Shown here: in pieces, positions 10,115 to 32,607 of the stretch
Layout: the number at the start of each line of letters is the position of its first letter
Numbering within the stretch: position 1 is the first letter of the stretch
Notes under the pieces: model-generated
Database searches by the model: none
Told to the model about the DNA's origin: nothing
What the model saw: only the letters and a program-made list of their open reading frames with translations
Assembly: GCA_001801025.1 (NCBI GenBank)
Contig: MGWO01000007.1
Location: 806,001 to 870,000, forward strand
Origin: Gallionellales bacterium GWA2_54_124
GTDB taxonomy: Bacteria > Pseudomonadota > Gammaproteobacteria > Burkholderiales > Gallionellaceae
Length of the DNA stretch: 64,000 nucleotides
Direction of reading: 5' to 3'
Position numbers and translations under genes: made by a program

Positions 10115-11653
10115 ATGGCTAAAGCAACAAAAGAAACTAAAGACGAACCGTTGGAAAAGCAGCTATGGAAAGCGGCCGACAAGCTGCGTAAGAATATCGA
10201 CGCTGCCGAATATAAGCATGTGGTGATGGGGCTGATCTTCCTGAAATATATCTCCGACTCATTCGAGGAGATGTTCACCAAGCTGCAAGCAGGCGAAGGG
10301 GAGATGGCCGGAGCTGATCCCGAAGACAATGATGAATACAAGGCGGAAAATATTTTCTTCGTTCCGCCTGAAGCCCGCTGGTCATACCTTGTAGCCAAAG
10401 CTAAGCTGCCTACCATCGGCACCGTGGTAGATGAGGCGATGGATGCCATCGAGAAGGAAAATCCCTCGCTCAAGGGCGTGCTGCCCAAGGTATTCGCGCG
10501 GCAAAACCTCGACCCTGCAAGCCTCGGCGGTTTGATTGATCTGGTGGGCAACATTGCGCTGGGCGATGCCAAATCGCGCAGCGCCGATGTGCTGGGGCAT
10601 GTGTTCGAATATTTTCTCGGTGAATTCGCGCTGGCAGAAGGCAAACAGGGCGGACAGTTCTACACGCCGCGCAGCATCGTAGAGTTGCTGGTCGCCATGC
10701 TAGAGCCCTACAAGGGCCGCGTGTTCGATCCCTGCTGTGGTTCGGGCGGTATGTTCGTTCAATCGGAAAAATTCGTCGGCGAACATCAAGGACGTGTCAA
10801 CGACATCTCAATCTACGGGCAGGAGAGCAACCAGACCACCTGGCGACTGGCGAAGATGAACCTCGCCATACGCGGCATCGACAGCTCGCAGGTGAAGTGG
10901 AACAACGAGGGGTCCTTCCTCAACGATGCCCACAAAGACCTGAAAGCCGATTTTATCATCGCCAACCCGCCGTTCAATGTCAGCGATTGGAGCGGCGAGC
11001 TGCTGCGCGGCGATGGCCGCTGGCAGTTTGGTGCGCCGCCTGCGGGCAATGCCAACTTCGCGTGGTTGCAGCACTTCGCCTATCACCTCAACCCGCAGGG
11101 AAAAGCGGGCGTGGTGCTGGCCAAAGGCGCGCTCACCAGCAAGACCAGCGGCGAAGGCGAGATCCGCAAGGCACTTATCGCCGACGGCAATCTGATCGAC
11201 TGCGTTGTCAACCTGCCCGCCAAACTATTTTTGAATACCCAGATACCGGCGGCGCTGTGGTTCTTGAACCGCGCACGCAACAATGGTCACCCGCGAAAAA
11301 ACGAAATCCTGTTCATCGATGCGCGCAACCTCGGACACCTCATCAACCGCCGCACCAAGGAACTCTCGCACGAGGACATCCAGCAGATCGCCGACACCTA
11401 CCATGCTTGGAGCACCGGCGAAGGTGCGTATGAAGATGTGAAAGGCTTCTGCGCCTCCGTGCCGTTGTCGCGCGCGGAAGAACTGGGCTATGTGCTCACG
11501 CCGGGGCGATATGTCGGCCTGCCGGACGAGGAGGACGATTTCAATTTTGCCGAGCGCTTCGCTACGTTGAAAGCGGATTTTGAAGCGCAGTTGCTGGAAG
11601 AGACAAAGCTGAATAAGGTCATTGCTGAGAATCTGGCGAAGGTGCAGGCATGA
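10115..11653 (+). CDS. hsdM: Type I restriction-modification system, methyltransferase subunit HsdM
   Basis: The modification subunit, an N6-adenine methyltransferase working with HsdS. This 512-aa protein has the HsdM N-terminal helical domain ([14 protein letters not shown], about 1-140), the SAM-binding motif [11 protein letters not shown] near residue 203 and the catalytic NPPF near 282 ([12 protein letters not shown]). The length is normal. Its stop overlaps the hsdS start (ATGA). It is the first gene of a long plus-strand operon ending at hsdR; 165 bp without a gene separate it from the integrase. Confidence 0.97.
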
Positions 11654-12852
11654 GTGAGTGGGATGAGCTCACGATAGGTGAACTACCGCTGATTATCGGT
11701 GATGGAAATTATTCATCGAAGTATCCTTCAGCAAAGGAATTTAAGGTGGCAGGGATTCCGTTTATCTCAAATAAGGACATTAAGAATGGCAGGATACTTT
11801 CAGAGGATTTACGCTACATATCACCTGAAAAGCATGCAGAGTTAAAAAAAGGCCACATCAAAGAACATGATATTTTGGTTTCGACTCGTGCAAACATTGG
11901 TGATATAGCATATGTTGATGCTTCATTTGAAGATGCAAATATCAACGCTCAACTTGTATTCTTGCGTTGTGACGAAAAAAAGCTTCACTCTAAATTCCTT
12001 TACCACCTTCTGTCGAGCAAGCATTACCACTCAATTTTTCAAAATCACGCGTCAGGTAGTGCGCAGATGCAATTGCCGATTTCTGCTCTCCGCGATATTC
12101 CAATTAGTTTTCCTGAGTATGATGAACAAAAGGCAATTGCAGGTGTGTTGAGCAGCCTCGACGATAAAATAGACCTGTTGCACCGCCAGAATAAAACCCT
12201 GGAAGCTATGGCCGCAACCCTGTTCCGTCAGTGGTTCGTGGAACAGGCGCAGGAGGATTGGGAGGAAGTTGCTCTTGAGGATGTTACCCGCAGAATTACC
12301 GATGGTGCACATGCAAGTCCGTCTACTGTCGAGGTTGGGCTGCCCATGGCATCTGTTAAGGATATGTACCAATGGGGAATAAACACGGCAAGCTGCCGTC
12401 AAATTTCTCAAGAAAATTTTAATGAATTGGTAAGGACGGATTGTCGTCCCTTGAAGAATGATATTTTGATTGCCAAGGACGGCAGCTACTTAAAACACGT
12501 CTTTGTGGCTGAGGATGATATGGACGTTGTCATCTTGTCATCAATTGCCATATTGAGGCCAAATAAGAAATACCATCCATTGTTATTAGCAACCTTTCTG
12601 AAACTGGATTCCACCAGAGAAGGTTTGGCGAACATTGTCACCGGTGCAGTGATCCCTCGCATTGTCCTAAAGGATTTTCGCAAATATAAGTTACTGCTAC
12701 CACCTAAACAGCTTCAGGATCAAGCGTTGACATCCATTCAACCTATCTATGAAAAATGCTGGGAGAACGATAGGCAAATCCGCACCCTCGAAAACCTCCG
12801 CGACACCCTGCTGCCCAAGCTGATGAGCGGTGAAATACGAGTCAACCATTAA
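11650..12852 (+). CDS. hsdS: Type I restriction-modification system, specificity subunit HsdS
   Basis: The DNA sequence-recognition subunit, 400 aa, with the usual two target-recognition domains, each followed by a conserved helical repeat. TRD1 begins near residue 5 ([10 protein letters not shown]) and TRD2 near 203 ([17 protein letters not shown]). The central spacer helix contains [19 protein letters not shown] and the C-terminal one [20 protein letters not shown]. It ends SGEIRVNH, the usual HsdS tail. Its start overlaps hsdM by 4 bp. The recognition site cannot be read from sequence. The next gene starts within or just after its 3' end. Confidence 0.95.
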
Positions 12853-12871
12853 TCAATTACAGACAACCAAG

Positions 12872-14734
12872 ATGACCCAACAACAAATTAAAGAGATGAG
12901 TCGAAATGAATTCGCTGATGCAATAAATAAAACATATTCTCATGTTGGAAATTTCATTCTATTGGGACTAACAGGTCGTACAGGCTCAGGTTGTTCAACG
13001 GCAGCTAAAATTCTAGGACAAGAAAATGCTTCTCCGATCAGCGAGTCGGCAATTTACACATCGACAAACGACAAGAGAAAGCTGGGAATAATCCACAAAT
13101 ATACTCAAAAAAATTGGGAACCTTTTTACTCAATTCGAGTTACTACAGTTATTACCTATTTCATCCTTGATCTTGAGTTTGGTCAGTTTGCCAAGTTTCT
13201 ATCAGAGGTTGTACTAGGCAATGATGCAGAAAATATTGCTAATAAGTTAGCCAGCTTTAAAACTGAGTACGAAGAAGCTCACGGCCTAGTCAAAGAATTA
13301 AAGAATTTACCAGAAGATAGTAAAGGGAATGTGAAAGCTAGAGCGAAACGCTCGATTGAGATTTTCTTTGAAGTGCTCCCGCAATTTACCGAAAAACTGA
13401 AGGAGGCATTACAGGAACTGATTGGAGTCGATTCCTACGTGCTTTTATACCAAGAGGCAGGCGATAACATTCGAGCTTCTGGTAAAGCAAATATTAAGGA
13501 GTTTGTTGCCAAAGAGATTTTTTTCTTGCCTCGCGTAATAAATAAGATTGTTCGCGCTCTTCAATACAAACATAAGGACGAAGGTAAAGAAAACCTATTC
13601 ATTGTTATTGACGCAATTCGCAACCCATATGAAGCAGAATACTTTAAACAAAGGCATGCGCATTTTTTTCTTGTTGCCGTTAATACGCCTAACTCTGAAA
13701 GGCTTGCCCACCTAAGAGACAGCCATAAGCTGTCAGATGTTCAAATTCAAAAGCTAGATTTTAAGGAATATCCAAAGAAAACATCTGGAATTGAGATGTT
13801 TGTTTCCCAGAATATCCAACGTTGCATTGAGTTGGCGGATATACATATAACCAACCCAAAAAGACAAAAGTTCAATAATACCGAACTGGCAAATCAATTG
13901 TATTGGTATGTCACGTTGATCAAACATCCAGGTCTTGTAACACCGACGGCCATTGAGCGATCGATGCAACTGGCCTTTACTGCCAAGCTTAATTCTGGTT
14001 GTATTTCTAGACAGGTTGGCGCGGTAATAACTGATTCAAGCTACTCAGTTAAAGCTGTTGGATGGAATAGTGTTCCGGAGGGACAAGTGCCTTGTCTTCT
14101 TCGCGGTGTTGATGAATTACTACATGGCGTCAGTGATACATCTACGTTCAGTGAATATGAACAAAATAGCACGGAGTTTCGCAAAGTTATTGATATAAGC
14201 TTTTCTGAAATTATTAAGGACGATGGCTTAGGCGGAAGGCGCTTTCCATACTGCTTCAAAGATGTTTATAACGAAGTGGAGGCGGAGAAGAATCAAGTGC
14301 ATACAAGATCTCTTCATGCCGAAGAAAATGCCTTCCTTCAAATCACTAAATATGGAGGGGGCGGAATAAAGGGGGGAGTGCTTTTTACAACTGCCAGCCC
14401 ATGTGAACTTTGTTCCAAAAAGGCATACCAGATTGGAATCGAAAAAATCTACTTCATCGATCCTTATCCTGGTATATCGAATGATCACATTCTTAAGTCC
14501 GGGAACAGCAATCCAGAATTGATATTGTTCGGCGGAGCAATAGGTTCTGCATACCATCGAATTTATCAGTCGATCATGCCATACAAAGATGAGTTGCAGG
14601 TTCTAACCGGGTATAAGTTGAGTGGCGGGAAGAAAAAAATATACAAAAAATCACGGCACGAAGAAGAGCTTGAGCGGAAAATTGAAAAACTTGAGCTTGA
14701 ACTCCAGAAGCTGACTTTAACTCAAGGCAGCTAG
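12872..14734 (+). CDS. Anti-phage dCTP/dCMP deaminase-type protein (P-loop + deaminase)
   Basis: A 620-aa two-domain protein. The N-terminal P-loop NTPase-like domain has GLTGRTGSGCST at about 31-42, where the Walker lysine position is Cys. The C-terminal part is a zinc-dependent dCMP-deaminase-like domain with HAEEN near 481 (zinc ligand and proton shuttle) and SPCELCSKK near 508 (the two cysteine ligands). This architecture matches the anti-phage cytidine deaminase defence family (DCD/AvcD), which depletes dCTP/dCMP during infection. A charged coiled coil closes the protein. An upstream GTG at 12830 would overlap hsdS, but it falls in the conserved HsdS tail, so I prefer the ATG at 12872. 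The gene lies inside the hsd operon. Confidence 0.85.
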   Translation: MTQQQIKEMSRNEFADAINKTYSHVGNFILLGLTGRTGSGCSTAAKILGQENASPISESAIYTSTNDKRKLGIIHKYTQKNWEPFYSIRVTTVITYFILDLEFGQFAKFLSEVVLGNDAENIANKLASFKTEYEEAHGLVKELKNLPEDSKGNVKARAKRSIEIFFEVLPQFTEKLKEALQELIGVDSYVLLYQEAGDNIRASGKANIKEFVAKEIFFLPRVINKIVRALQYKHKDEGKENLFIVIDAIRNPYEAEYFKQRHAHFFLVAVNTPNSERLAHLRDSHKLSDVQIQKLDFKEYPKKTSGIEMFVSQNIQRCIELADIHITNPKRQKFNNTELANQLYWYVTLIKHPGLVTPTAIERSMQLAFTAKLNSGCISRQVGAVITDSSYSVKAVGWNSVPEGQVPCLLRGVDELLHGVSDTSTFSEYEQNSTEFRKVIDISFSEIIKDDGLGGRRFPYCFKDVYNEVEAEKNQVHTRSLHAEENAFLQITKYGGGGIKGGVLFTTASPCELCSKKAYQIGIEKIYFIDPYPGISNDHILKSGNSNPELILFGGAIGSAYHRIYQSIMPYKDELQVLTGYKLSGGKKKIYKKSRHEEELERKIEKLELELQKLTLTQGS

Positions 14735-20725: not shown

Positions 20726-20911
20726 GTTTCGGGGGGAAATGCGAAATATTGAATTGTTTTTCTGCTATTGCCAATGACAGTATCATTTTTATTTGTGACT
20801 TGCCGAGAAAGTTGCCGGAATAGGTTTGCATCGCTTGATTGTCAATATAAACCATGTTATTTTCCTATACCAACAAAATTATGTTGATAATGCAAAATAA
20901 AGGTGAATATA

Positions 20912-22093
20912 GTGCTGCATAGCTATGCATTCTCAAACTTCCAGTCCTTCCGTGAGCGGATCGAAGTCGATCTGACTATCAGCCGTAAGGTTGCCATGAC
21001 CGAGTGGATGAGTGATGTGCCGACCGGCGAGCGGGTATCCAAACTGATGGCGGTGATTGGCCCGAATGGCAGCGGCAAGACCGCGCTGCTGAAGCCGATG
21101 GCATTTATCAGTTGGTTCATCACAAACTCATTTCAATCGCTGCATGATGCAGGCATTCCTATTGCCCCGCACGCCGCGAACGCAAATGAGCCGAGTGAGC
21201 TGGAGTGCATGGTGGACTTTGACGGAAAGCTGTGGCGTTATGTGTTGCGCTGCACGCCTGAACGGGTGCTGCATGAAGCGCTTTACCAAAAGCGTGAACG
21301 ATTTGGTTATGTCTTTGTTCGGGATTGGGATGCTGAAACCAAGACCTATGTGGTCAAGCAACAGGATTTTGGTTTAGCTCCGCAAGAAGCACGCAAGGTG
21401 CGCCCAAATGTTTCGCTGATTGCCTGGGCGGCGCAATTTGGTGTGCCGCTGGCGATGCGCATGACCGCGCCCTATGTGAATACCAATGTCAATTTGCTGG
21501 GCCGCATGCCGATTGGCAGTCAGGATGTTCAGGTGGCAGCGCAACATTTTTCAGTCCATGCTGTTCAACGTGAACGGATGGAACTCTTGTTGTCTGCATG
21601 GGATTTAGGCTTGTCCGGCATCGAGTTGCAGGAATTTGTCGTTAATAATCCACAGGAACCAAGCCAGACCGTATGGGTGCCGTTTGGCAAACACAAAAAC
21701 AGGAACACTGAATTTAAGTTGCCTTTTGCACTTGAATCAAGCGGCACGCAAGGTGCGTTTGTCCTATTGTCACGGCTATTGCAAACACTAGAAATTGGCG
21801 GTTTGGCGGTAATTGACGAATTCGAGAATGATTTGCATCCGCACATGCTGGAGCCTATTCTCGACTTGTTCGCAAATCCCTCAGCGAACCCGCACAATGC
21901 GCAACTGTTATTCACCTGCCACGCCATCGAAGTGTTGAATCTGGTGCATAAATCGCAGGTGATATTGGTGCAAAAAAATGAAGACTGCGAAAGTTCAGCC
22001 AGTCGCATGGATGCGGTGGAAGGTATCCGTAATGATGACAATTTTTATGCTAAATACATGGCGGGCGCTTATGGCGCTGTGCCAGTACTCTGA
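20912..22093 (+). CDS. AAA/ABC-type ATPase of an RloA/AbiL-like defence pair
   Basis: A 393-aa cytoplasmic ATPase with an SMC/ABC-like fold split around an insert. Walker A is GPNGSGKTALL near residue 50; the signature-like SSGTQGAF and Walker B LAVIDEFENDLHP lie near 290-315, followed by the switch His in FTCHAIEVL. This is the AAA_15/AAA_21 arrangement seen in OLD-, RloA- and AbiLi-type proteins. The GTG at 20912 is preferred because AAAGGTG is well spaced before it; a GTG at 20903 is also in frame. It is followed after 5 bp by a TOPRIM-like gene, so the two form a unit, probably an abortive-infection system. Confidence 0.8.
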   Translation: MLHSYAFSNFQSFRERIEVDLTISRKVAMTEWMSDVPTGERVSKLMAVIGPNGSGKTALLKPMAFISWFITNSFQSLHDAGIPIAPHAANANEPSELECMVDFDGKLWRYVLRCTPERVLHEALYQKRERFGYVFVRDWDAETKTYVVKQQDFGLAPQEARKVRPNVSLIAWAAQFGVPLAMRMTAPYVNTNVNLLGRMPIGSQDVQVAAQHFSVHAVQRERMELLLSAWDLGLSGIELQEFVVNNPQEPSQTVWVPFGKHKNRNTEFKLPFALESSGTQGAFVLLSRLLQTLEIGGLAVIDEFENDLHPHMLEPILDLFANPSANPHNAQLLFTCHAIEVLNLVHKSQVILVQKNEDCESSASRMDAVEGIRNDDNFYAKYMAGAYGAVPVL

Positions 22094-22098
22094 TTGCC

Positions 22099-22596
22099 AT
22101 GGCTATCTGGAAAGCACAGCGTACTTTATTGATCGTCGGCGAAGGACGCCATGAAGACGCGTTTCTGAATCATCTCAAACAGCTTTATGTGCCGCGTGGC
22201 TGCGGGCTTTCGGTGACGATCAAGAATGCCCGTGGTAAAGGGGCTTTGCATGTGATTGACTGGACAGCCAAGCAAATTGCCAACGCTGATTATGATGCAG
22301 TTGCCGCCCTGCTCGATACGGACACTGACTGGAATAGCAAAACTGAAAAATTGGCGAAAAGCAAAAAAATACAGGTTCTAAAATCTGAGCCTTGCCTTGA
22401 GGCGATGATGTTGCGGTTGCTTGGAAAGTCAGCCAATGGTGACGCTCATGCCCTTAAAAAACAGTTCGCCCCATTCGTAAATAACGATCCGACGCAACGG
22501 GATAACTATGCGCAGCATTTTGGCTCGGCTTGCTTGCTGGCGGGTAGAAACAAAGAACCGACGATAGATGCACTGCTCAAGTTATTTGGTCACTGA
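22099..22596 (+). CDS. RloB/TOPRIM-like partner of the AAA ATPase
   Basis: A 165-aa protein with a TOPRIM-type layout: LLIVGEGRHEDAFL near the N-terminus (conserved Glu) and AALLDTDTDW near residue 75 (acidic metal-binding triad). The length is short for the RloB family (about 200 aa) but the motifs are in order. In related pairs the TOPRIM protein is the nuclease effector released by the ATPase; here that is inference. It begins 5 bp after the ATPase stop and faces the HAD gene tail to tail. Confidence 0.72.
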   Translation: MAIWKAQRTLLIVGEGRHEDAFLNHLKQLYVPRGCGLSVTIKNARGKGALHVIDWTAKQIANADYDAVAALLDTDTDWNSKTEKLAKSKKIQVLKSEPCLEAMMLRLLGKSANGDAHALKKQFAPFVNNDPTQRDNYAQHFGSACLLAGRNKEPTIDALLKLFGH

Positions 22597-22630: not shown

Positions 22631-23092
22631 TTATATGTAAAAATCTTGGATTTTCTTAATAATGGCCGCCACGTCTGACTCAGTGAGGCCGGTTGCTCCA
22701 TCAACAAGATGCAGTGTCGGTGAGGCTGGTGGAAAGGACACGGCAATATCATCCACGGCAAGCCACGGTCTTTGATACTGCCCGTTGCCGGTAAGCCATA
22801 AGCGACATTCAATATGACGGCGATGATGCGGCCCGTGAATTAGCGCCCCCTTCTCACGAAAAATAGAAGGTGTTGCCCCGACAAACCGGTGCGTGAATTC
22901 CCGCCCATTGCCATGTGTCACTAACTCAAGCAACTCGTCTTGACTGTAGATTTCTCTCCATGACGTAGAAAAAACAACGTCAACATCTGGGCAGGCACGC
23001 AGGATTTTCCATAGCAATTCGATGCGGCAAAAATCCGGTTCTGTTCTCAAAAGAGGATGAAGCACCCCGTCGAAATCAAGGAATAGGATCAT
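22631..23092 (-). CDS. HAD-family protein similar to RNA-repair HAD domains
   Basis: A 153-aa HAD phosphatase-fold protein. Motif I is LFLDFDGVLHP (nucleophile and acid Asp), motif II STSWRE, and the distal acid is in LAVDD near residue 105. DFDGVLHP with STSW is typical of the HAD domain in Swiss-army-knife RNA repair proteins. The ATG at 23092 is supported by AAAGGA and by its 4-bp overlap (ATGA) with the stop of the exonuclease gene upstream. A possible role in processing RNA or DNA 3' ends together with the exonucleases is inference. Confidence 0.72.
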   Translation of the reverse strand: MILFLDFDGVLHPLLRTEPDFCRIELLWKILRACPDVDVVFSTSWREIYSQDELLELVTHGNGREFTHRFVGATPSIFREKGALIHGPHHRRHIECRLWLTGNGQYQRPWLAVDDIAVSFPPASPTLHLVDGATGLTESDVAAIIKKIQDFYI

Positions 23093-23607
23093 ATTCTTTT
23101 CCTTTGAAAACAACGATGCGCAAACCAGATACATCGAGCATCCCATAGTGCCTGGTGTCGGACTGCACCAAGTGACTTATTGGTGCGCCAGTAGTCGGCC
23201 ACTGCGTTGTTATATCGGAAGCGTTCGGTATCAGATTCAAAGTTGCAGACATGGTGGCATTGGCGCGTCAGGTTTTCAGGCCAGCCATAGTGGTCGAACA
23301 TCTCCGATACCCAAGGCCAGTCATAATTAGGTGCATCTGAATAGAGGGTCACTTTCTCGGCGAAACCCTCAATCCACGCTTTCAATCGTGCCGCACAGTC
23401 GGCTTCTGGTAACGCATATTCGGCGCCTTGTAGCAATGGAAGCACTACCTCGATCACAAAATCAGAGCATGTTCTTTTTTCCCAGGTGTCAGCTAGCTCG
23501 ATATATAGCTCGTTGCCATTACTGGCTATCAACCCTATGCTAATCAGGCATGGGTCATACTTGATGCCAATTAAGTCTGAAAATTCACAATCAAAATATA
23601 CGTTCAC
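23089..23607 (-). CDS. DEDDh 3'-5' exonuclease (copy 1)
   Basis: A 172-aa exonuclease of the Rv2179c-like exoribonuclease group. Catalytic motifs: DxE in VYFDCEFSD, a central Asp in YSDAPNYDWPW, and HxxxxD in RHQALWDAR. The GTG at 23607 is preferred, with GAGGGAG upstream; the ATG at 23625 lacks a site. It overlaps the HAD gene by 4 bp. The gene 65 bp upstream encodes a clear paralogue of the same length, sharing the SDAPxYDW and FDHxGWPENL blocks. The substrate is probably RNA by family analogy. Confidence 0.78.
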   Translation of the reverse strand: MNVYFDCEFSDLIGIKYDPCLISIGLIASNGNELYIELADTWEKRTCSDFVIEVVLPLLQGAEYALPEADCAARLKAWIEGFAEKVTLYSDAPNYDWPWVSEMFDHYGWPENLTRQCHHVCNFESDTERFRYNNAVADYWRTNKSLGAVRHQALWDARCIWFAHRCFQRKRI

Positions 23608-23671
23608 GGCGACTCCCTCAAGCACCTAGCGTTTTGCCCGTTCGACAGGTAAAAACCATCGTCGTGCGTCA

Positions 23672-24190
23672 TCAAATGCCCCGTCTAATTGCGAACTTCC
23701 ATGCGAACAACATACTTCTTGCATCAACCAGTGCATGATGCTGGCGTGCGCCGTTGTCTTTCCAAAAATTAGCAAGTGCCGCGCCATACCGATGTCGTTG
23801 CTTGTATTCCTCGAAGCAAAGTAATGAACACTTTTTGCGCAGATTTTCAGGCCAGCCGTTATGGTCGAATATTTCCTGAATAAACGGCCAGTCGTAGGTT
23901 GGCGCATCGCTAACCAATACCACCTCTTTACTGGTGAGGCTTTCAATCCATGCCTTGAGACGCACGGCCAGCTCAGACACGCCCATACGATATTCGCCAC
24001 CTTCCAGTAGCGGCACGACGGTATCGAGTACAAACATAGAACATAAATGTTCATCGTAGGTGTCAGTTAGCTCTGCATAGAATTCGCGGCTGTCCGTGGA
24101 AACGCAACCGATAGAAATTAGGTATCGGTGGCCGTTCTTGTCCGGCTGGGTATTGGCGAATTCGGTATCGAAAAACACTTGCATCATCAT
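23672..24190 (-). CDS. DEDDh 3'-5' exonuclease (copy 2)
   Basis: A 172-aa paralogue of the following gene. Catalytic motifs: DxE in VFFDTEFAN, the central Asp in VSDAPTYDWPF, and HHALVDAR as HxxxxD. All acidic residues are present, so it should be active. Three ATG codons start the frame; the third (24184) is best spaced from AGAGGA. It lies 4 bp after a small gene and 64 bp before copy 1, so all four genes from 24458 to 22631 are probably one transcript. Confidence 0.78.
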   Translation of the reverse strand: MMMQVFFDTEFANTQPDKNGHRYLISIGCVSTDSREFYAELTDTYDEHLCSMFVLDTVVPLLEGGEYRMGVSELAVRLKAWIESLTSKEVVLVSDAPTYDWPFIQEIFDHNGWPENLRKKCSLLCFEEYKQRHRYGAALANFWKDNGARQHHALVDARSMLFAWKFAIRRGI

Positions 24191-24194
24191 TCCT

Positions 24195-24458
24195 CTATGG
24201 CGATTCGCTCAGACCAAGCACTTCGCGTTTTTCCCAGCTCGACAGATGACTGTATTGGGCGGCATTCGCTTCCGCCTCGATCTCCTGCTCCAACTGCATC
24301 TCGAACGCCACTTGATATTCCTGCGCCTCGATCAACGTTTTCACCTTCGCAGGCCAGCCCAGCATCCAGCGGTTTGCCAGCTCTATGCCCGTGCGTGTCT
24401 GAGTTATCAGACTATGTAGATCTTTTGGATATACCTGCGGCTTGTATAAATTTTGCAT
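24195..24458 (-). CDS. Small protein of unknown function leading the exonuclease/HAD cluster
   Basis: An 87-aa polar, largely helical protein (MQNLYKPQVYPKDLHSLITQ..., with a Glu-rich stretch near 55-68). Not recognised. Position is its main support: it is the first gene of the minus-strand cluster, with 4 bp to the exonuclease copy 2 start, and CTGGAGGAATAC-type ribosome site just before the ATG. It could be a regulator or a small partner protein; there is no evidence for either. Confidence 0.6.
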   Translation of the reverse strand: MQNLYKPQVYPKDLHSLITQTRTGIELANRWMLGWPAKVKTLIEAQEYQVAFEMQLEQEIEAEANAAQYSHLSSWEKREVLGLSESP

Positions 24459-24560
24459 TCCGTATTCCTCCAGCAGAAAAATTGTGAAGCGTAGTTATGA
24501 AGCAAAATTATAAACTTAATTTATAATAATTTATTGTTTATATTCAAATAGTTAAAATAT

Positions 24561-24604
24561 AGTTTGTTAGCAGTTTGTTATCTGTTTGTTAACACTTTGT
24601 TATC
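24561..24604. repeat. Four tandem 11-bp repeats (iteron-like)
   Basis: AGTTTGTTAGC, AGTTTGTTATC, TGTTTGTTAAC and ACTTTGTTATC follow each other without gaps, so each is one helical turn apart. They lie in AT-rich DNA upstream of the exonuclease/HAD cluster and downstream of the relaxase gene. A protein-binding array is likely. Confidence 0.75.
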
Positions 24605-24655: not shown

Positions 24656-26818
24656 TTAGTGAGTCTGAGACAGGTTTTTAGATTTTTGAAGCCATATTTT
24701 TACGTCAGGCTTACCATTTTTATAGTTAATTTGAAATTTCTCCCCTACGCGCATCTGTTTGAAAGCTTCGTTCATTGGAAGTTTGCGCAAATACCCCCGG
24801 CGTACTTCAATAAATATTGCGTCTGCTTCAATCGAATGAACGGCACCTGTATAACTGCCACATACCAAATCGGCGGGCTGAGCGTCAGCAGTCATGCGAC
24901 GACGCTCCGTTTCAACCGCTTGGTTTAAATTGTCATCAGCAAACATGAAACCATGTTTTGCGGCTAGTTCAACGCATAATTGCCGGAACTCGACATCACC
25001 TGTGATCGTGAGCTTCCCATATTTCTGTACGCCCAATTGCAACGCGGCAAACACCGTATCTGGATCGTGCTGTTGTGCGATATTGATTTTTTCACCGACA
25101 TCAGTAAAAGACAGCGTGCCGGTGACACTCCGATACTCGATTGCTCCGCGTGCCAAATCAACGATGGCACTAAAATTCCGAATATCCGCTTGCGCGAGTT
25201 TCAGAGGAAAAACAGTTCCGCTCTGACCGGACAATTGCGCTTCATCCTTGATGGCATCCAACTCTGACTTTTTCTTCCGTTCTGCTTTGAGCTGAATGGC
25301 TGCATCTAATGCCTGTTGCTGCTGAACTGACGCCTCCAGCGTTGCCAGCCATTCCGCATAATCCGGCAGTTTTGGTGAAACCAACGATTTGCGCGCTCTT
25401 GTGAGGTTTTCTTGTAAAGCTGCTTTTTCATCGGCCTGTTGCTTGGCAAGTAGCATTTTTTTAATTTTCAACGCAGCTGGATCGTGATGTTGTTTCTCAA
25501 ACAGAACCTTCCTTTTTTTGCGCTGTATCTCGGCGAGAGCCGTGCGCGTTTCCTGATGTTGTTGAACCATAGCTTTTCTCTCAGACGCAACACTGGCTCG
25601 TTGCGACACTATCAAAGGTCGCTGTTCTGCCAGAAATGCACGATATTCATCAAGTAGTTGCTTTGGCTGCGCTTGCGAATCTGTTGTTTGTGCAACATGC
25701 ACCACCAGGTTGTCACGATCTCGTTCAGGATCGTAGAACAGGCCGCGCTTCACTAACCCATTCCATCCGTAGGCCTTACCAAGCTGACTGCCGGAAAACG
25801 ACACGCCATCGCATTCGAACGAAAATCCATTCATGCGTCCTGTACTGGCGATGTGGGCGCGGTACTTGATGCCATACGCTGATAATGCCTCTGCAAATTG
25901 TGTGGCCGTCAGCTCGCCGGGTTTTGAATCAATGTTGCACCATAATGCATAGTCACTTTGGGCTTCGAGTGCATCGAGGTGAAGAATCTCATCGCTAGGC
26001 GGAAGCACGTTGTCTCGGTTACTGTCATGATCAAACGGGATTTCAGCTTCATGACATAGCGGCCTAACTGGTCTATCCAAAACCGGGAATGACGGTGGTA
26101 TCACGGCTCTCGTGCCGAGACGAAGCCCTAAAGCAGCGGCTCGATCACGGTATATTTGTGACTGCTCGCGGTCGCTGCCTACATCAGACTTGTCCTCGGC
26201 TTTTGGAAAATGCTCATCAAAAATCCTGTCTATGATTTTTTGCAATCGCTCTTTGGGCGGCATTCTGTCCAGTCGATCAGCAAGTTCCTGTTCACCTTTC
26301 TTTAATCTTGTTCTATCCGGCGAAACAGCATTGCCTTCACGATCAAGCTCAACACCTTTGGTGACCGTCAGGCCGTGGTCGCGTTCGAGCTGCTGAATAA
26401 TTTTGGTGCTGATTAGGTTTTCGTTCTTGCCAAGATACAACCGCCCATCAAGGCCAATCCGCGAGGCGATGATGTGGATGTGCTGCCCATTGGCGTCACC
26501 GTGCTGAATATAGGCGCGCTGGTGCAGCTCTGTAAAACCCATGCGACGCATGTAATCGTCGGCAACCTTTACCCATTGATCATCGTTTAATTTTTCGCCA
26601 GTTGGAAGACGTAGCGAGTTGTGCCAGACGGGCTTCTTGATGTCAGGTCTGACTTGTCGCGCAATTGCAAATTCAGAGGCAAGTTCGGATGGCGTAGCGC
26701 CATCCATGTTGCCGCCCAAATGCCGTCCCGGTTCAACATCGTTGCTGTCACGCTCAAAGGCGTAATTCAGTGCGCCTCTGAACCCGCGTCCCCGACTAAT
26801 TTTCTGCATTCCCTTCAT
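24656..26818 (-). CDS. Relaxase/mobilization nuclease (MOBP-type, TraI-like) with LPD7 domain
   Basis: A 720-aa relaxase that would nick oriT and pilot the DNA strand in conjugation. The HUH motif is visible as QHGDANGQHIHIIASRI near residues 104-120; the N-terminus (SRGRGFRGALNYAFE) carries a candidate catalytic Tyr. The middle is a long charged coiled coil (about 400-540). The C-terminus holds an LPD7-like domain (ISFTDVGE-type region to AAKHGFMFADDN, about 560-680). Its start overlaps the MobC-like gene by 23 bp. Together with the divergent TraKLM-like genes this is the IncP arrangement. Confidence 0.88.
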   Translation of the reverse strand: MKGMQKISRGRGFRGALNYAFERDSNDVEPGRHLGGNMDGATPSELASEFAIARQVRPDIKKPVWHNSLRLPTGEKLNDDQWVKVADDYMRRMGFTELHQRAYIQHGDANGQHIHIIASRIGLDGRLYLGKNENLISTKIIQQLERDHGLTVTKGVELDREGNAVSPDRTRLKKGEQELADRLDRMPPKERLQKIIDRIFDEHFPKAEDKSDVGSDREQSQIYRDRAAALGLRLGTRAVIPPSFPVLDRPVRPLCHEAEIPFDHDSNRDNVLPPSDEILHLDALEAQSDYALWCNIDSKPGELTATQFAEALSAYGIKYRAHIASTGRMNGFSFECDGVSFSGSQLGKAYGWNGLVKRGLFYDPERDRDNLVVHVAQTTDSQAQPKQLLDEYRAFLAEQRPLIVSQRASVASERKAMVQQHQETRTALAEIQRKKRKVLFEKQHHDPAALKIKKMLLAKQQADEKAALQENLTRARKSLVSPKLPDYAEWLATLEASVQQQQALDAAIQLKAERKKKSELDAIKDEAQLSGQSGTVFPLKLAQADIRNFSAIVDLARGAIEYRSVTGTLSFTDVGEKINIAQQHDPDTVFAALQLGVQKYGKLTITGDVEFRQLCVELAAKHGFMFADDNLNQAVETERRRMTADAQPADLVCGSYTGAVHSIEADAIFIEVRRGYLRKLPMNEAFKQMRVGEKFQINYKNGKPDVKIWLQKSKNLSQTH

Positions 26819-27185
26819 CGGGTTCTCCCGTGCCGAGCAGATCGCGACGAAGCGCCTTCACTTGTGAAAGTACCTCTCCCAGAAAATTCGATGGATAGCC
26901 ACTGGCTCGCCCTTGGTTGATTGCAGTTTGAAATTGATTCAAGTTGGCGGCCAGCCGGGCAAGTTCAATCCATGCTTCGCGGTTGACTGCCGGAATGAAA
27001 CAAGGAAGTTGATCAATGGCCGCCATGCGCAGCCACTCACCACGCTCAAAATTAGACCGCCGCGCATCAAGCAAATTAAGCTCATTTTTGTTCAGGCGCA
27101 CAGACACGCAATGATTTCTGCGTTCATTTGCATCAAGCGGAATCGGCCCGCGCCGACGCTTGCGATCTTCGTTTATTTCAGTCAT
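26796..27185 (-). CDS. MobC/TraJ-like relaxosome accessory protein
   Basis: A 129-aa basic protein with an N-terminal ribbon-helix-helix-like segment (NHCVSVRLNKNELNLLDARR) and a C-terminal region (LARLAANLNQFQTAIN) characteristic of MobC-type relaxosome proteins. It would bind oriT and recruit the relaxase. The ATG at 27185 has GGAGG 5 bp upstream; the longer frame from 27221 has none. It overlaps the relaxase gene, indicating coupling, and lies directly beside the candidate oriT. Confidence 0.8.
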   Translation of the reverse strand: MTEINEDRKRRRGPIPLDANERRNHCVSVRLNKNELNLLDARRSNFERGEWLRMAAIDQLPCFIPAVNREAWIELARLAANLNQFQTAINQGRASGYPSNFLGEVLSQVKALRRDLLGTGEPDEGNAEN

Positions 27186-27246
27186 GAAACCTCCATCAAG
27201 GTTGATTAATTCATATTGCAAGCGGAGCGAGTAGCACGCCGCAGGC

Positions 27247-29516: not shown

Positions 29517-31388
29517 TTATTTTACTTTATCGATTTTCGGATTTTGTGCTCTCCAAGTTTCAACTAGCTCCTCATAATGGGGTTCAGTTTCCATCTTGAT
29601 TCCCCATCCACCAGGATTTTGTGAATCTTCCAAAGAGACGTCATCATAAATAATGGGATCTTGGCTATCAGGCCTTCTACTCCTCGGCGGGGCCTCTATT
29701 GTTGTCCGCATTGGCAATTTGACGGCTTCACCCAAAATTATCGCTTCACCTGTACGTAAAATGGGCAGCATATCTGTTAAGCCATCCAAGTTGTCTGACA
29801 AAGCGGACGTAATGTGGCTTCTATCAGATGCATTCGTTAATCTGAGCGCGAAGAATGTTCCGCATTGCGAAAGTATTGTGGGGTTAATTTCTGACGGCCT
29901 TTGACTCACAATCATGGCACCAATTCCATACTTCCTCCCCTCTTTGACAATACGTTGAACTATCTTTGATGCCATCCCTTTAAAGTCATCATTTAAATAA
30001 ATATGCGCTTCTTCCATGACAACAAGTAGGGGTCTATGCCGACCTCCTTGAGACAAATTTCTAGCCCAGAACATAGCCTCATAAAGCAACCGAAGAAGTG
30101 CGCCTATTGTTGTTTGCAAAATATCGGCTGGGATACCAGATAAGTCCAAAATAGTAACGGGCTTATCACTGCCTATCCAATTTCTTAACAAGCGATCCAA
30201 ATCTTGTCCAACTTCTCCTTTAACGTCAGGCATCCATTTATTGGGCTTGAAAATAAAATCATACCTAGGAATCCTTAGCTTAGTACCCAATAATAGAAGC
30301 TGCTTCCCAATATTTAATGAACCCGGCAAATTGAATATTTTTTCTTCCCCGGCTTCAGTCACAATGTTTTTGAAGATTGGGGCGATGCCTTTAATTGGAT
30401 CACCCTTTAATTCATTACCTTTCGCATCAGTTTCATAAGCCAAATTATCGCTCGGTTTACCTGGCCGACCTTTGTAATATGTGCCAAACACTTCAACAAA
30501 TAATTCATACCACAAGTGATGAATGCTAAACGGAATTGGTGAGTCAACACTGAGAGTGTCGGCAGATGCACCTTTTCGAGGGTATTTTGCCAAGGATTCA
30601 ATTTTATATTTCTGAACTCTCTCCATTACAATGTTTTTATCTTTTTCATTACTAAACTCGCCGAAGCTAATTTCGCATAACTCATCAAAGTTTAGTGCCC
30701 AAAAGGGTATATGCAACTCCTTCTCTTTAAGCTTTGAAGTGGCATCACTGTTAATTTTATATATATTTGCTTTTTCTTGTAACGCTTGGCCATATTCACC
30801 ATGAAGGTCCAGCATGATTATTCTGGCAGATGGATATTTGTCGCTGTCAGACAACGCATTCATGATGCTTGAAACTGTTGTTGACTTGCCGGAACCGGTT
30901 GTGCCGACAACGGCAGAGTGTCTGGTAATTAGCTTATTTACGTCTATTAATGCAGGGATAGTTTCTGCATTTGAAATGTGGCCTAACTTTACGAAATAGG
31001 GCTTATCTGGTTGCCCATAAATATTTTTAAGCTCTTTTTCTGACACTAAATGAACTTCATCGCCAATAGTTGGGTACTGTGAAAGACCTCTTTGAAATAC
31101 GCCGTTTCTAGGCCCTTCTCCAATCAGTTGAATTGTCATCCATCTATTACCATAGCTATGATTTTCAACTTGGCTTTCAGGTACAGCACTTGCGCCTACT
31201 TGGCTGATAATTCCAAATAAATCATTAAATCCGATCGGTATACGAATAAAGCTACCTATCTGACCGACTCTATATCCTTGACCGTCAATATACACAAACC
31301 CCGTTAACGATTCCTTAGATAAGGAAATGCTGACTGTAGTCCCTTTAACATCTTGGACATCTCCAAGATATGTTTCTTTGTTAGACAT
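29517..31388 (-). CDS. herA: HerA-type ATPase/helicase of a SIR2-HerA defence system
   Basis: A 623-aa FtsK/HerA-superfamily ATPase. An N-terminal HAS-barrel-like region (about 1-130) precedes Walker A GTTGSGKSTT near 160-168, Walker B LLVVMEEAHIYL and the sensor region MIVSQRPSEI. SIR2-HerA pairs are known anti-phage systems in which the complex depletes NAD and attacks nucleic acid. The ATG at 31388 overlaps the last codons of the SIR2 gene and has AAGGAAGA upstream; an ATG at 31412 lies further inside that gene. Length and motifs suggest an intact protein. Confidence 0.88.
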   Translation of the reverse strand: MSNKETYLGDVQDVKGTTVSISLSKESLTGFVYIDGQGYRVGQIGSFIRIPIGFNDLFGIISQVGASAVPESQVENHSYGNRWMTIQLIGEGPRNGVFQRGLSQYPTIGDEVHLVSEKELKNIYGQPDKPYFVKLGHISNAETIPALIDVNKLITRHSAVVGTTGSGKSTTVSSIMNALSDSDKYPSARIIMLDLHGEYGQALQEKANIYKINSDATSKLKEKELHIPFWALNFDELCEISFGEFSNEKDKNIVMERVQKYKIESLAKYPRKGASADTLSVDSPIPFSIHHLWYELFVEVFGTYYKGRPGKPSDNLAYETDAKGNELKGDPIKGIAPIFKNIVTEAGEEKIFNLPGSLNIGKQLLLLGTKLRIPRYDFIFKPNKWMPDVKGEVGQDLDRLLRNWIGSDKPVTILDLSGIPADILQTTIGALLRLLYEAMFWARNLSQGGRHRPLLVVMEEAHIYLNDDFKGMASKIVQRIVKEGRKYGIGAMIVSQRPSEINPTILSQCGTFFALRLTNASDRSHITSALSDNLDGLTDMLPILRTGEAIILGEAVKLPMRTTIEAPPRSRRPDSQDPIIYDDVSLEDSQNPGGWGIKMETEPHYEELVETWRAQNPKIDKVK

Positions 31389-32607
31389 TCTTATCTTCCT
31401 TGGAAGCGCCAATTATTTTTTTAAGAAAATCAGTAAATACAGAAAAGTCCCCAAGTTTAATTAAGTCTTTAGGACTTTCAGAACCATCAGTTTGTTTGTC
31501 ATGACAAACAAATCTCAATAGATCAGGGTCGTCATCGTCTTTGTTTTTTCCTCTATGCCAGCGTCCTAGATTTGTTCCGATTATGGCTTTGTCAAAGGTC
31601 CAAATATTTAGATTATGCTGTTTTTTGGCTAACCGATAAGCTTCCGGATACCTTTCTACCGATTCACCAGAGTCAGTTGCATCTTCATATCTTTCAAACA
31701 TTAGCCCAAGCACCATCGCAGTTGGATTTGCCGTGAGCGCATTGATAATCGTGTCGTTCAAATGACCATCATTAAACGAATAACCAGACAGGATTAAAAA
31801 TGACGATTTTTTTCGAATAAATCTATTCAATTGATCGATCAAAGCCAGATAAGGCATTTTCCGACTTTCTTCATATTTCAAATGTGATGGATAAATTAAA
31901 TGCGATGCATCTTTTTTTATCTCTGAAGAACGATAGACCTTTTTTTGCCCACCTATTTTTTCCTGATACCAATTAATTGATCCGTGTATTTTCCAGAGTC
32001 TCGACCAGTGTGTGGGTATCAAATTATCTTCTACAGCCCGAAGATCAAAGAATGAACTTCTCGACCCCACAAACCCATCAAAATAGGGCACCTCTAAATC
32101 TTCCAGCGCTTGTTCCATTAAAAGATCGTAATTTGTTGTAAAGAGTTCTACCGCGACTTTTCGATCTATTGATCTTATCCATTTGCAAAGTCGATGGTAT
32201 GGCGTTTCTTGGCTCGGTAAACTTACATCTAATCTTTCCGCTATAACTGTGCAAATTTTTTTCTCCAAACCTAATAAATCCTGCTCGCATAGCCCTCTTA
32301 CATCCCCACCTTTTGATACCAGCAACAAGCTACGTAAAAAACTTAAAATATCTTCAATATTTTCAGTGCATTTCTCAGCTTTTTTTAACTCTGCCAGCAG
32401 TACAGAATACTTATTATCGTCTTTCAGTTGCTCATTAATATACTTGGTAAGATTGGCGACATCAGGTATCAACGGCCATTTACCTTCAGGCATTTCTACG
32501 GATAACGGGCAGCCCGCCGAAATAAAAAAACCGATTGACTCATTATCTTGCGACAGTGATTGCCTAAGATATTTCAAATGCCGAATAGGATCATGGAAAT
32601 TGTCCAT
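31381..32607 (-). CDS. SIR2-like NADase of a SIR2-HerA defence system
   Basis: A 408-aa SIR2-fold protein. The NAD-binding GAGxS-like motif appears as FFISAGCPLSV near 27-37, the TNYD motif as LFTTNYDLLMEQAL near 155-165, and the catalytic His in WKIHGSINW near 205. The C-terminal Rossmann part has FLILSGYSFNDGHLND. These features match defence-type SIR2 effectors, not deacetylases. Its stop overlaps the herA start, giving coupled production. The 17-bp motif shared with 24582-24598 lies 13 bp upstream of its start. Confidence 0.88.
   Translation of the reverse strand: MDNFHDPIRHLKYLRQSLSQDNESIGFFISAGCPLSVEMPEGKWPLIPDVANLTKYINEQLKDDNKYSVLLAELKKAEKCTENIEDILSFLRSLLLVSKGGDVRGLCEQDLLGLEKKICTVIAERLDVSLPSQETPYHRLCKWIRSIDRKVAVELFTTNYDLLMEQALEDLEVPYFDGFVGSRSSFFDLRAVEDNLIPTHWSRLWKIHGSINWYQEKIGGQKKVYRSSEIKKDASHLIYPSHLKYEESRKMPYLALIDQLNRFIRKKSSFLILSGYSFNDGHLNDTIINALTANPTAMVLGLMFERYEDATDSGESVERYPEAYRLAKKQHNLNIWTFDKAIIGTNLGRWHRGKNKDDDDPDLLRFVCHDKQTDGSESPKDLIKLGDFSVFTDFLKKIIGASKEDKNV

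Follow-up and report, generated by a model that had tools for sequence, protein, structure and literature searches.

What do two related exonucleases and a phosphatase do when they are packed together behind a transfer gene and among genes of host defense? The question is raised by four minus-strand genes at positions 22631 to 24458 of a 64,000-nucleotide stretch of DNA, here called the window, from Gallionellales bacterium GWA2_54_124 (assembly GCA_001801025.1, contig MGWO01000007.1, positions 806,001 to 870,000), which had been predicted to form an RNA-end-processing defense cluster. Exonuclease and HAD genes of the kinds found there were repeatedly located close to one another in other genomes of the order. 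Our tentative answer, held with rather less than even confidence, is that the window genes would be a cut-down cargo cassette of a mobilizable element, taken from a larger modular end-processing set, and that they may heal or trim ends against host defenses that cleave RNA.

The first gene after the relaxase is an orphan open reading frame (ORF) of 87 amino acids (aa) (24195..24458), followed by ExoA, a DEDDh 3'-5' exonuclease with an RNase AS-like fold (23672..24190), by its paralog ExoB (23089..23607) and by a HAD_SAK_2 phosphatase (22631..23092). The tight packing originally described is present, with a 4-bp gap, a 64-bp gap and a 4-bp ATGA overlap at the three junctions. The genes were called with a simple ORF picker and not a trained gene finder. 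ExoA is 172 aa from its first ATG, and ExoB is likewise 172 aa from a GTG at 23607, or 178 aa from an earlier GTG in the ORF listing; the identical length claimed for the two therefore holds for the 172-aa forms but hinges on the start codons chosen. The HAD would be 171 aa from an upstream ATG, while its 153-aa form begins at the ATG that overlaps the ExoB stop codon by 4 bp, in agreement with the predicted coupling of the two genes.

Recurrence of the exonuclease and HAD genes

Among 300 genomes of the order, 27 matched the exonuclease profile and 23 the HAD profile, with both present in 9 genomes compared with 2.07 expected under independence (hypergeometric, 3.5e-5). Within the same sample, 7 contigs hold 18 exonuclease-HAD pairs separated by no more than 6 kb, whereas random placement would give 0.13. 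The exonuclease and the HAD are a recurring pair, although neither count is corrected for kinship; three of the nine genomes belong to one genus and are not independent. The input to the linkage analysis comprised only the 51 strongest phosphoesterase places (in 48 of 77 genomes) and the 10 strongest AAA+ loci, and a length of 4 Mb was assumed for genomes whose length was unavailable.

A HAD gene was detected with hidden Markov models within 5 kb of the exonuclease at 17 of 69 loci. This is a mixed set of 29 loci from the order sample (9 with a HAD), 34 from contigs of named genomes (7) and 6 from plasmids (1), the latter being 6 of 15 plasmid matches. The weakest order-sample matches (e.g., L110 and L111) are absent from the set, L156, L159 and L160 were excluded as repeats of loci from genomes G063 and G068, and one repeat is included (L164, of L077). 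Partner status was clustered on the exonuclease tree, requiring 19 changes compared with 25.1 after shuffling (4 of 500 shuffles were as low), with near copies contributing to this result.

In other genomes the two types of gene stand in larger operons, which contain a Lon-like AAA+ ATPase, one to three exonucleases (with an additional fragment once), one to four HADs and up to three kinds of phosphoesterase. Further parts are DSP phosphatases and, once, a Pol-beta nucleotidyltransferase (NTase), both with weak matches (9.3e-5 and below, at or under the cut-offs). The operon of "Candidatus Ferrigenium altingense" (L158) reads AAA+, exonuclease fragment, two exonucleases, DSP, exonuclease, HAD, phosphoesterase, HAD, two phosphoesterases and HAD, and that of Sideroxydans (L157) reads AAA+, phosphoesterase, three exonucleases, two HADs and two phosphoesterases. 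Locus L079 carries AAA+, exonuclease, Pol-beta NTase, HAD, DSP, phosphoesterase and DSP; a Rhodoferax plasmid (L004) carries AAA+, HAD, exonuclease and phosphoesterase; and L147, which has no exonuclease, carries AAA+, phosphoesterase, HAD, phosphoesterase and DSP. Another of the larger operons is found at L093. Gene order and copy number vary among the loci, and overlapping genes occur in the window and in L012, L004, L075, L157 and L158. The Lon-like ATPase domain of the AAA+ protein was matched at 7.4e-33 over approximately 150 residues; from the length of the protein and the lack of a protease match, it follows that it would not contain the Lon protease. Among the AAA+ loci of the order sample, the 10 strongest include six that adjoin an exonuclease, HAD or phosphoesterase gene and four (G068:C16, G377, G369 and G435) with no such partner in the stretch fetched, which for G435 stops at the contig end. 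In a comparison of neighborhoods with these operons, the window set is, by all appearances, a cut-down form of the AAA+/phosphoesterase arrangement.

No description of an AAA+/exonuclease/HAD operon was found among the titles and abstract starts of the papers listed, and an earlier one in Burroughs and Aravind 2016 is possible. A bolder reading, that the window genes are the reduced form of an undescribed AAA+-centered multi-enzyme end-processing system, whose enzymes were amplified and swapped, and placed behind relaxases in some lineages, and which would serve as a ligase-free counter-defense toolkit for RNA ends, is in our estimation possible but doubtful.

Several features of the operons were recorded in passing. 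In L004 (3075-4013) and L079 (7613-8569) the HAD has an N-terminal domain with a CGDGW motif; this domain also stands alone in L093 (4999-5463), a form for which no Pfam name was found. One of the four HAD copies in L012 (8812-9234) is shortened and lacks the DD motif, which suggests that genes turn over within the array. A gene for a WYL-WCX regulator (11573-12550), followed farther out by one for an SNF2-type helicase, lies near the exonuclease/HAD operon of L157 and may mark a link to a defense neighbor. In L227 and L228, relatives of the AAA+ protein stand beside phosphoesterases with no exonuclease or HAD match, and the AAA+/phosphoesterase pairing seems wider than the exonuclease/HAD set.

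The exonucleases, the phosphatase and the small ORF

ExoA and ExoB share 48% identity, and the DxE, D...D and HxAxxD motifs are retained in both (in ExoB as FDCEF, SDAPNYD and RHQALWDA), as in the whole set of 37 exonucleases compared, to which the two belong; their description as clear paralogs with complete motifs is upheld. Matches to family models were mostly weak. Against PF16473, with a cut-off of 27 bits, ExoA reached 25.6 bits (E value, 1.2e-5) and ExoB 15 bits (0.02). ExoA scored 30.5 bits with the RNase_AS equivalog model (NF033638), far short of its cut-off of 200 bits, and ExoB matched PHROG 2259 at 8.2e-20. An AlphaFold2 model of ExoA (predicted local distance difference test [pLDDT] score, 95.1) was closest among solved structures to RNase AS (4hec, 4oke and 6s0m), with Z scores of about 20 and root mean square deviations of 2.3 to 2.5 over 151 to 158 residues (for 4oke_A, Z = 20.0 and 2.4 over 155 residues). 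The sequence profile of the exonuclease family retrieved 6s0m at 6.2e-15, consistent with the RNase AS fold. By these cut-offs ExoA is best described as a relative of the PF16473/RNase AS family and not as a filed member, a placement with which its DEDDh residues and the fold of its model agree. It shares the motifs and the modeled fold of RNase AS (Rv2179c-like) proteins, but is only 22 to 25% identical to them, falls below the PF16473 cut-off and is encoded on a mobile element, where it is paired with a HAD.

In the tree of the exonucleases, a copy from Sideroxydans (74%) is the closest relative of ExoA, and ExoB forms a long separate branch within the same Gallionellaceae clade; another exonuclease class is kept alongside the first in G063, L157 and L158. 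A recent duplication in place was therefore rejected, and the paralogous retention originally proposed is borne out by a tree on which the two are old paralogs.

The next group of folds (Z scores of about 14) comprises the CBASS exonuclease Cap18 (7t2s; Z = 14.3), RNase T and oligoribonuclease (Orn), and the fold is also akin to TREX; RNase T and TREX act on DNA. Cap18 thus has the DEDDh fold in common with ExoA but is more distant from it than RNase AS is. The kinship to Orn bears on an explanation in which the exonucleases and phosphatase, together with the phosphoesterases of the larger forms, destroy signal nucleotides of the kind made by CBASS or type III CRISPR systems and thereby shield an incoming element. 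The main phosphoesterase matches a 3',5'-cAMP phosphodiesterase model at 1.9e-8 (under the cut-off), and a position next to a relaxase would suit such counter-defense. However, RNase AS and not Orn is clearly the closest relative among solved structures, and the main phosphoesterase type has no match in the window genome (of the additional enzymes of the larger operons, this type and the AAA+ protein were the ones searched for in whole genomes), and we regard the degradation of messengers as unlikely.

The phosphatase matched PF18143 (HAD_SAK_2) at 2.2e-18, with 67.4 bits against a cut-off of 27.5, and consists of this domain alone. The alignment shows its catalytic motifs to be retained as DFDGVLHP, STSW and DD, which we take to be the DxD, S/T and DD motifs of HAD enzymes. 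A model of the protein (AlphaFold2; pLDDT, 93.4) had no Foldseek match at E values up to 0.001, and in a second structural comparison its nearest folds were the capless phosphatases MDP-1 and SCP1/FCP1 (Z scores of about 10); from the model, the enzyme is probably capless itself. Capless HADs tend to act on macromolecules. The assignment to a HAD of the RNA repair type is well founded by the PF18143 match, and the domains of the cluster suit nucleic acid end processing. In its score, standalone form and retained motifs the window protein resembles the "Swiss Army Knife" RNA repair phosphatases of this family, but its genome has no RNA ligase by two families, and relatives hold one to four HAD copies beside DEDDh exonucleases. 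The HAD sequence matched 1,859 plasmid records.

The 87-aa ORF had no match in Pfam, PADLOC, NCBIfam or PHROG. Relatives were identified in G063 (two copies in the same position, 78 to 80% identity), in G191 (4.1e-26), in G379 as a weak fragment and on an Acidovorax plasmid (34% identity; E value, 8e-3). With relatives in 2 of 158 genomes of the family and 4 of 300 of the order (one weak), and on no viral contig, it was rejected as a core part, and the idea of a small protein as a regular member of the cluster is not sustained.

A cassette behind a relaxase

The cluster begins 197 bp after a MOBP-type relaxase with an LPD7 domain (24656..26818, minus strand; PF03432 at 1.9e-24 and PF18821 at 1.6e-13), itself preceded by a MobC/NikA-like mobilization protein (26796..27221, minus strand; PF21983 at 5e-5 and 23.8 bits, under the 27-bit cut-off). 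Between the relaxase and the small ORF lie four 11-bp direct repeats (24558..24601, minus strand; AACAAAnnGnT-like, with the last unit departing). The array also occurs in contig G063:C4 (L012) of a genome of the same genus, where the relaxase is 90% identical to that of the window, and in degenerate form in L013; it resembles an operator or iteron array and may be a regulatory site. In all five multi-gene cassettes seen in the genus (the window, L012, L013, L075 and L100), a relaxase gene and a short ORF precede exonuclease genes, HAD genes or both, with a phosphoesterase added in L012 and L100; the relaxase of L013 is a weak Pfam match (0.0013). On a Caballeronia plasmid the exonuclease lies 12 bp after TraI/MobA(P), and Rhodoferax and Polaromonas plasmids with the exonuclease were typed MOBP.

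Comparison of the window with G063:C4 gave synonymous divergences (Ks) of 0.19 for both the relaxase and MobC, 1.02 for the small ORF and 2.39 for the HAD (using one of four possible partner copies in L012), with saturation for the exonuclease. Two G063 loci with unlike relaxases have close cargo (exonuclease Ks, 0.17). Since near transfer genes accompany distant cargo, and near cargo accompanies unlike relaxases, cargo and transfer genes appear from these sequences to have been exchanged against each other. For every cargo gene compared, nonsynonymous change was lower than synonymous change (pN < pS), indicating purifying selection.

At 5 of the 69 loci the relaxase lay just upstream of the exonuclease, and at 10 it lay no more than 5 kb away; because of these low counts the position is a habit of some lineages and not a rule. 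The relaxase was rejected as a constant neighbor on the same counts, together with four single-type Gallionella loci without a relaxase match, of which two have a HAD alone (L101 and L109) and two an exonuclease without a HAD (L172 and L175). These data also bear on whether the exonuclease and HAD might trim and dephosphorylate 3' ends of DNA, be it the strand being transferred or an intermediate of integration. The five relaxase-led cassettes, the Caballeronia plasmid and the kinship to RNase T and TREX are all in keeping with this, but the sequence and fold are closest to an exoribonuclease, no relaxase lies within 5 kb at 59 of the 69 loci, and the exonuclease is also found on viral contigs; we consider a role in DNA transfer quite unlikely.

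The predicted location in a defense island was correct in that type I restriction genes (HsdM and HsdR), an AbiLi/AbiLii-like pair, SIR2 and HerA are all present in the window, but the relaxase and MobC genes directly upstream of the cluster are part of it as well. That the cluster is itself a stand-alone anti-phage system, in which the phosphatase and exonucleases would break down RNA of the phage or the host upon infection, would fit its position among restriction-modification, Abi and SIR2-HerA genes, as well as the regulator and helicase near L157. PADLOC 2.0.0 (E values up to 0.01) linked ExoA to a CRISPR-associated DEDDh model (6.7e-6) and an exonuclease "Effector" model (0.0049) only, the former match and the fold kinship to Cap18 being further points in favor. 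However, no PADLOC family was matched by the HAD, ExoB or the small ORF, no sensor or toxic effector was recognized in the window set, and the multi-gene cassettes of the genus follow relaxases. In addition, a catalytic mutant of Cap18 is reported to have left CBASS protection unaffected (PMC9122588). A parallel to Cap19 as a phosphatase was dropped, because the same source describes Cap19 as a transmembrane protein (PMC9122588). Pfam and PADLOC scans of a subset of the window ORFs turned up neither a CD-NTase nor a HORMA partner. With relatives located on mobilizable plasmids as well, the label of defense system is unsupported and such a role is rather unlikely; an end-processing accessory of a mobile element, perhaps used in counter-defense, fits better.

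Other genes of the island were also noted. The AbiLi-like ATPase and the RloB/AbiLii-like gene (20903-22596) are convergent with the cluster, with 34 bp between the stop codons. The SIR2-domain gene overlaps the HerA/DUF87 gene (29517-32607), forming a SIR2-HerA-like pair, and between HsdM and HsdR a gene (12830-14734) encodes a large cytidine/dCMP deaminase-domain protein that matches the PADLOC dCTPase model at 1.2e-135.

Healing and trimming of ends as a candidate function

Under the cargo cassette reading, the capless HAD would remove phosphates from ends, for example where RNases have generated 3'-phosphate termini, and provide free 3'-OH groups for the DEDDh exonucleases. ExoA and ExoB could then trim or clear the RNA, each with its own substrate preference, so that the cell or the incoming element would clear or reset ends made by RNA-cleaving defenses of the host. 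A heal-and-trim pair is plausible, because DEDDh exonucleases require a free 3'-OH and HADs of the HAD_SAK family are predicted to clear phosphorylated ends. The substrate, the choice of RNA over DNA, the order of the steps and the purpose of counter-defense are all put forward as what the domains and their setting suggest, and such a purpose would suit both the relaxase-adjacent position and the turnover of the cargo.

Metal-independent RNases leave phosphorylated ends that HAD_SAK phosphatases are predicted to clear (PMC7824862 and PMC9503650). In a section of the former on jumbo-phage RNA repair, HAD_SAK proteins are given, by prediction, the role of RNA terminal phosphatases that work in end healing alongside calcineurin-like enzymes and Pol-beta NTases (PMC7824862). 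Those sets resemble the present one in having a HAD of the same family, a calcineurin-like phosphatase and a Pol-beta NTase, but in the same section they are tied to RNA ligases and polynucleotide kinases, with no DEDDh exonuclease named (PMC7824862), whereas here exonucleases are present, the larger forms have a Lon-like AAA+ protein and no ligase was found. RtcB (PF01139) and the PF09414 RNA ligase were not found in the window genome, which is 99.99% complete, in searches whose controls matched; the search for the PF09511 ligase was void, as no control matched, and other ligases were not well tested. Because neither RtcB nor the PF09414 ligase was found, repair by cutting and rejoining is less likely.

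A number of results weigh against the cargo cassette reading, the missing ligases doing so where it is taken as classical repair. At 44 of the 69 loci, no HAD, AAA+, phosphoesterase, DSP, NTase or CGDGW gene accompanies the exonuclease within 5 kb; because 22 of the 69 extend for less than 5 kb to one side, the figure is a maximum. Seven of these 44 do contain a further exonuclease, a relaxase or a member of the unnamed family c12, and among the 25 partnered loci one (L090) has the CGDGW domain alone. All three enterobacterial plasmids examined carry the HAD without an annotated exonuclease. The exonuclease has relatives at 39 viral loci (a search with ExoA only matched none), and no HAD, AAA+, phosphoesterase or relaxase was seen in the 38 where the scan saw the exonuclease, many of these contigs being short; an origin of the exonuclease-HAD pair in phages was rejected on these data. 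The window genome lacks the main phosphoesterase and the AAA+ family of the operon, its sole AAA+ match (1.2e-35) being in an 804-aa frame of Lon size. The single-type Gallionella loci, the scarcity of adjacent relaxases and the kinship of the ExoA fold to DNA exonucleases belong here too.

Because up to 44 of the exonuclease loci show none of the partners, the link to the HAD is frequent and not obligate. The genes could instead be accessory genes that have collected loosely in a cargo hotspot and do not act together, and their variable order and copy number, together with the 44 loci lacking partners, point in that direction. This is nevertheless improbable, given the excess of linked pairs over random placement, the gene overlaps at six loci and the clustering of partner status on the tree, to which near copies add.

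If the cargo cassette reading is correct, mobile elements would carry a swappable end-processing kit, placed in some lineages immediately after the transfer gene, a position that would favor its use soon after entry into a new host. Such a kit would represent a ligase-free branch of the RNA damage response in bacterial conflicts, and would give a testable function to plasmid-borne "HAD domain-containing" proteins and to orphan "3'-5' exoribonucleases."

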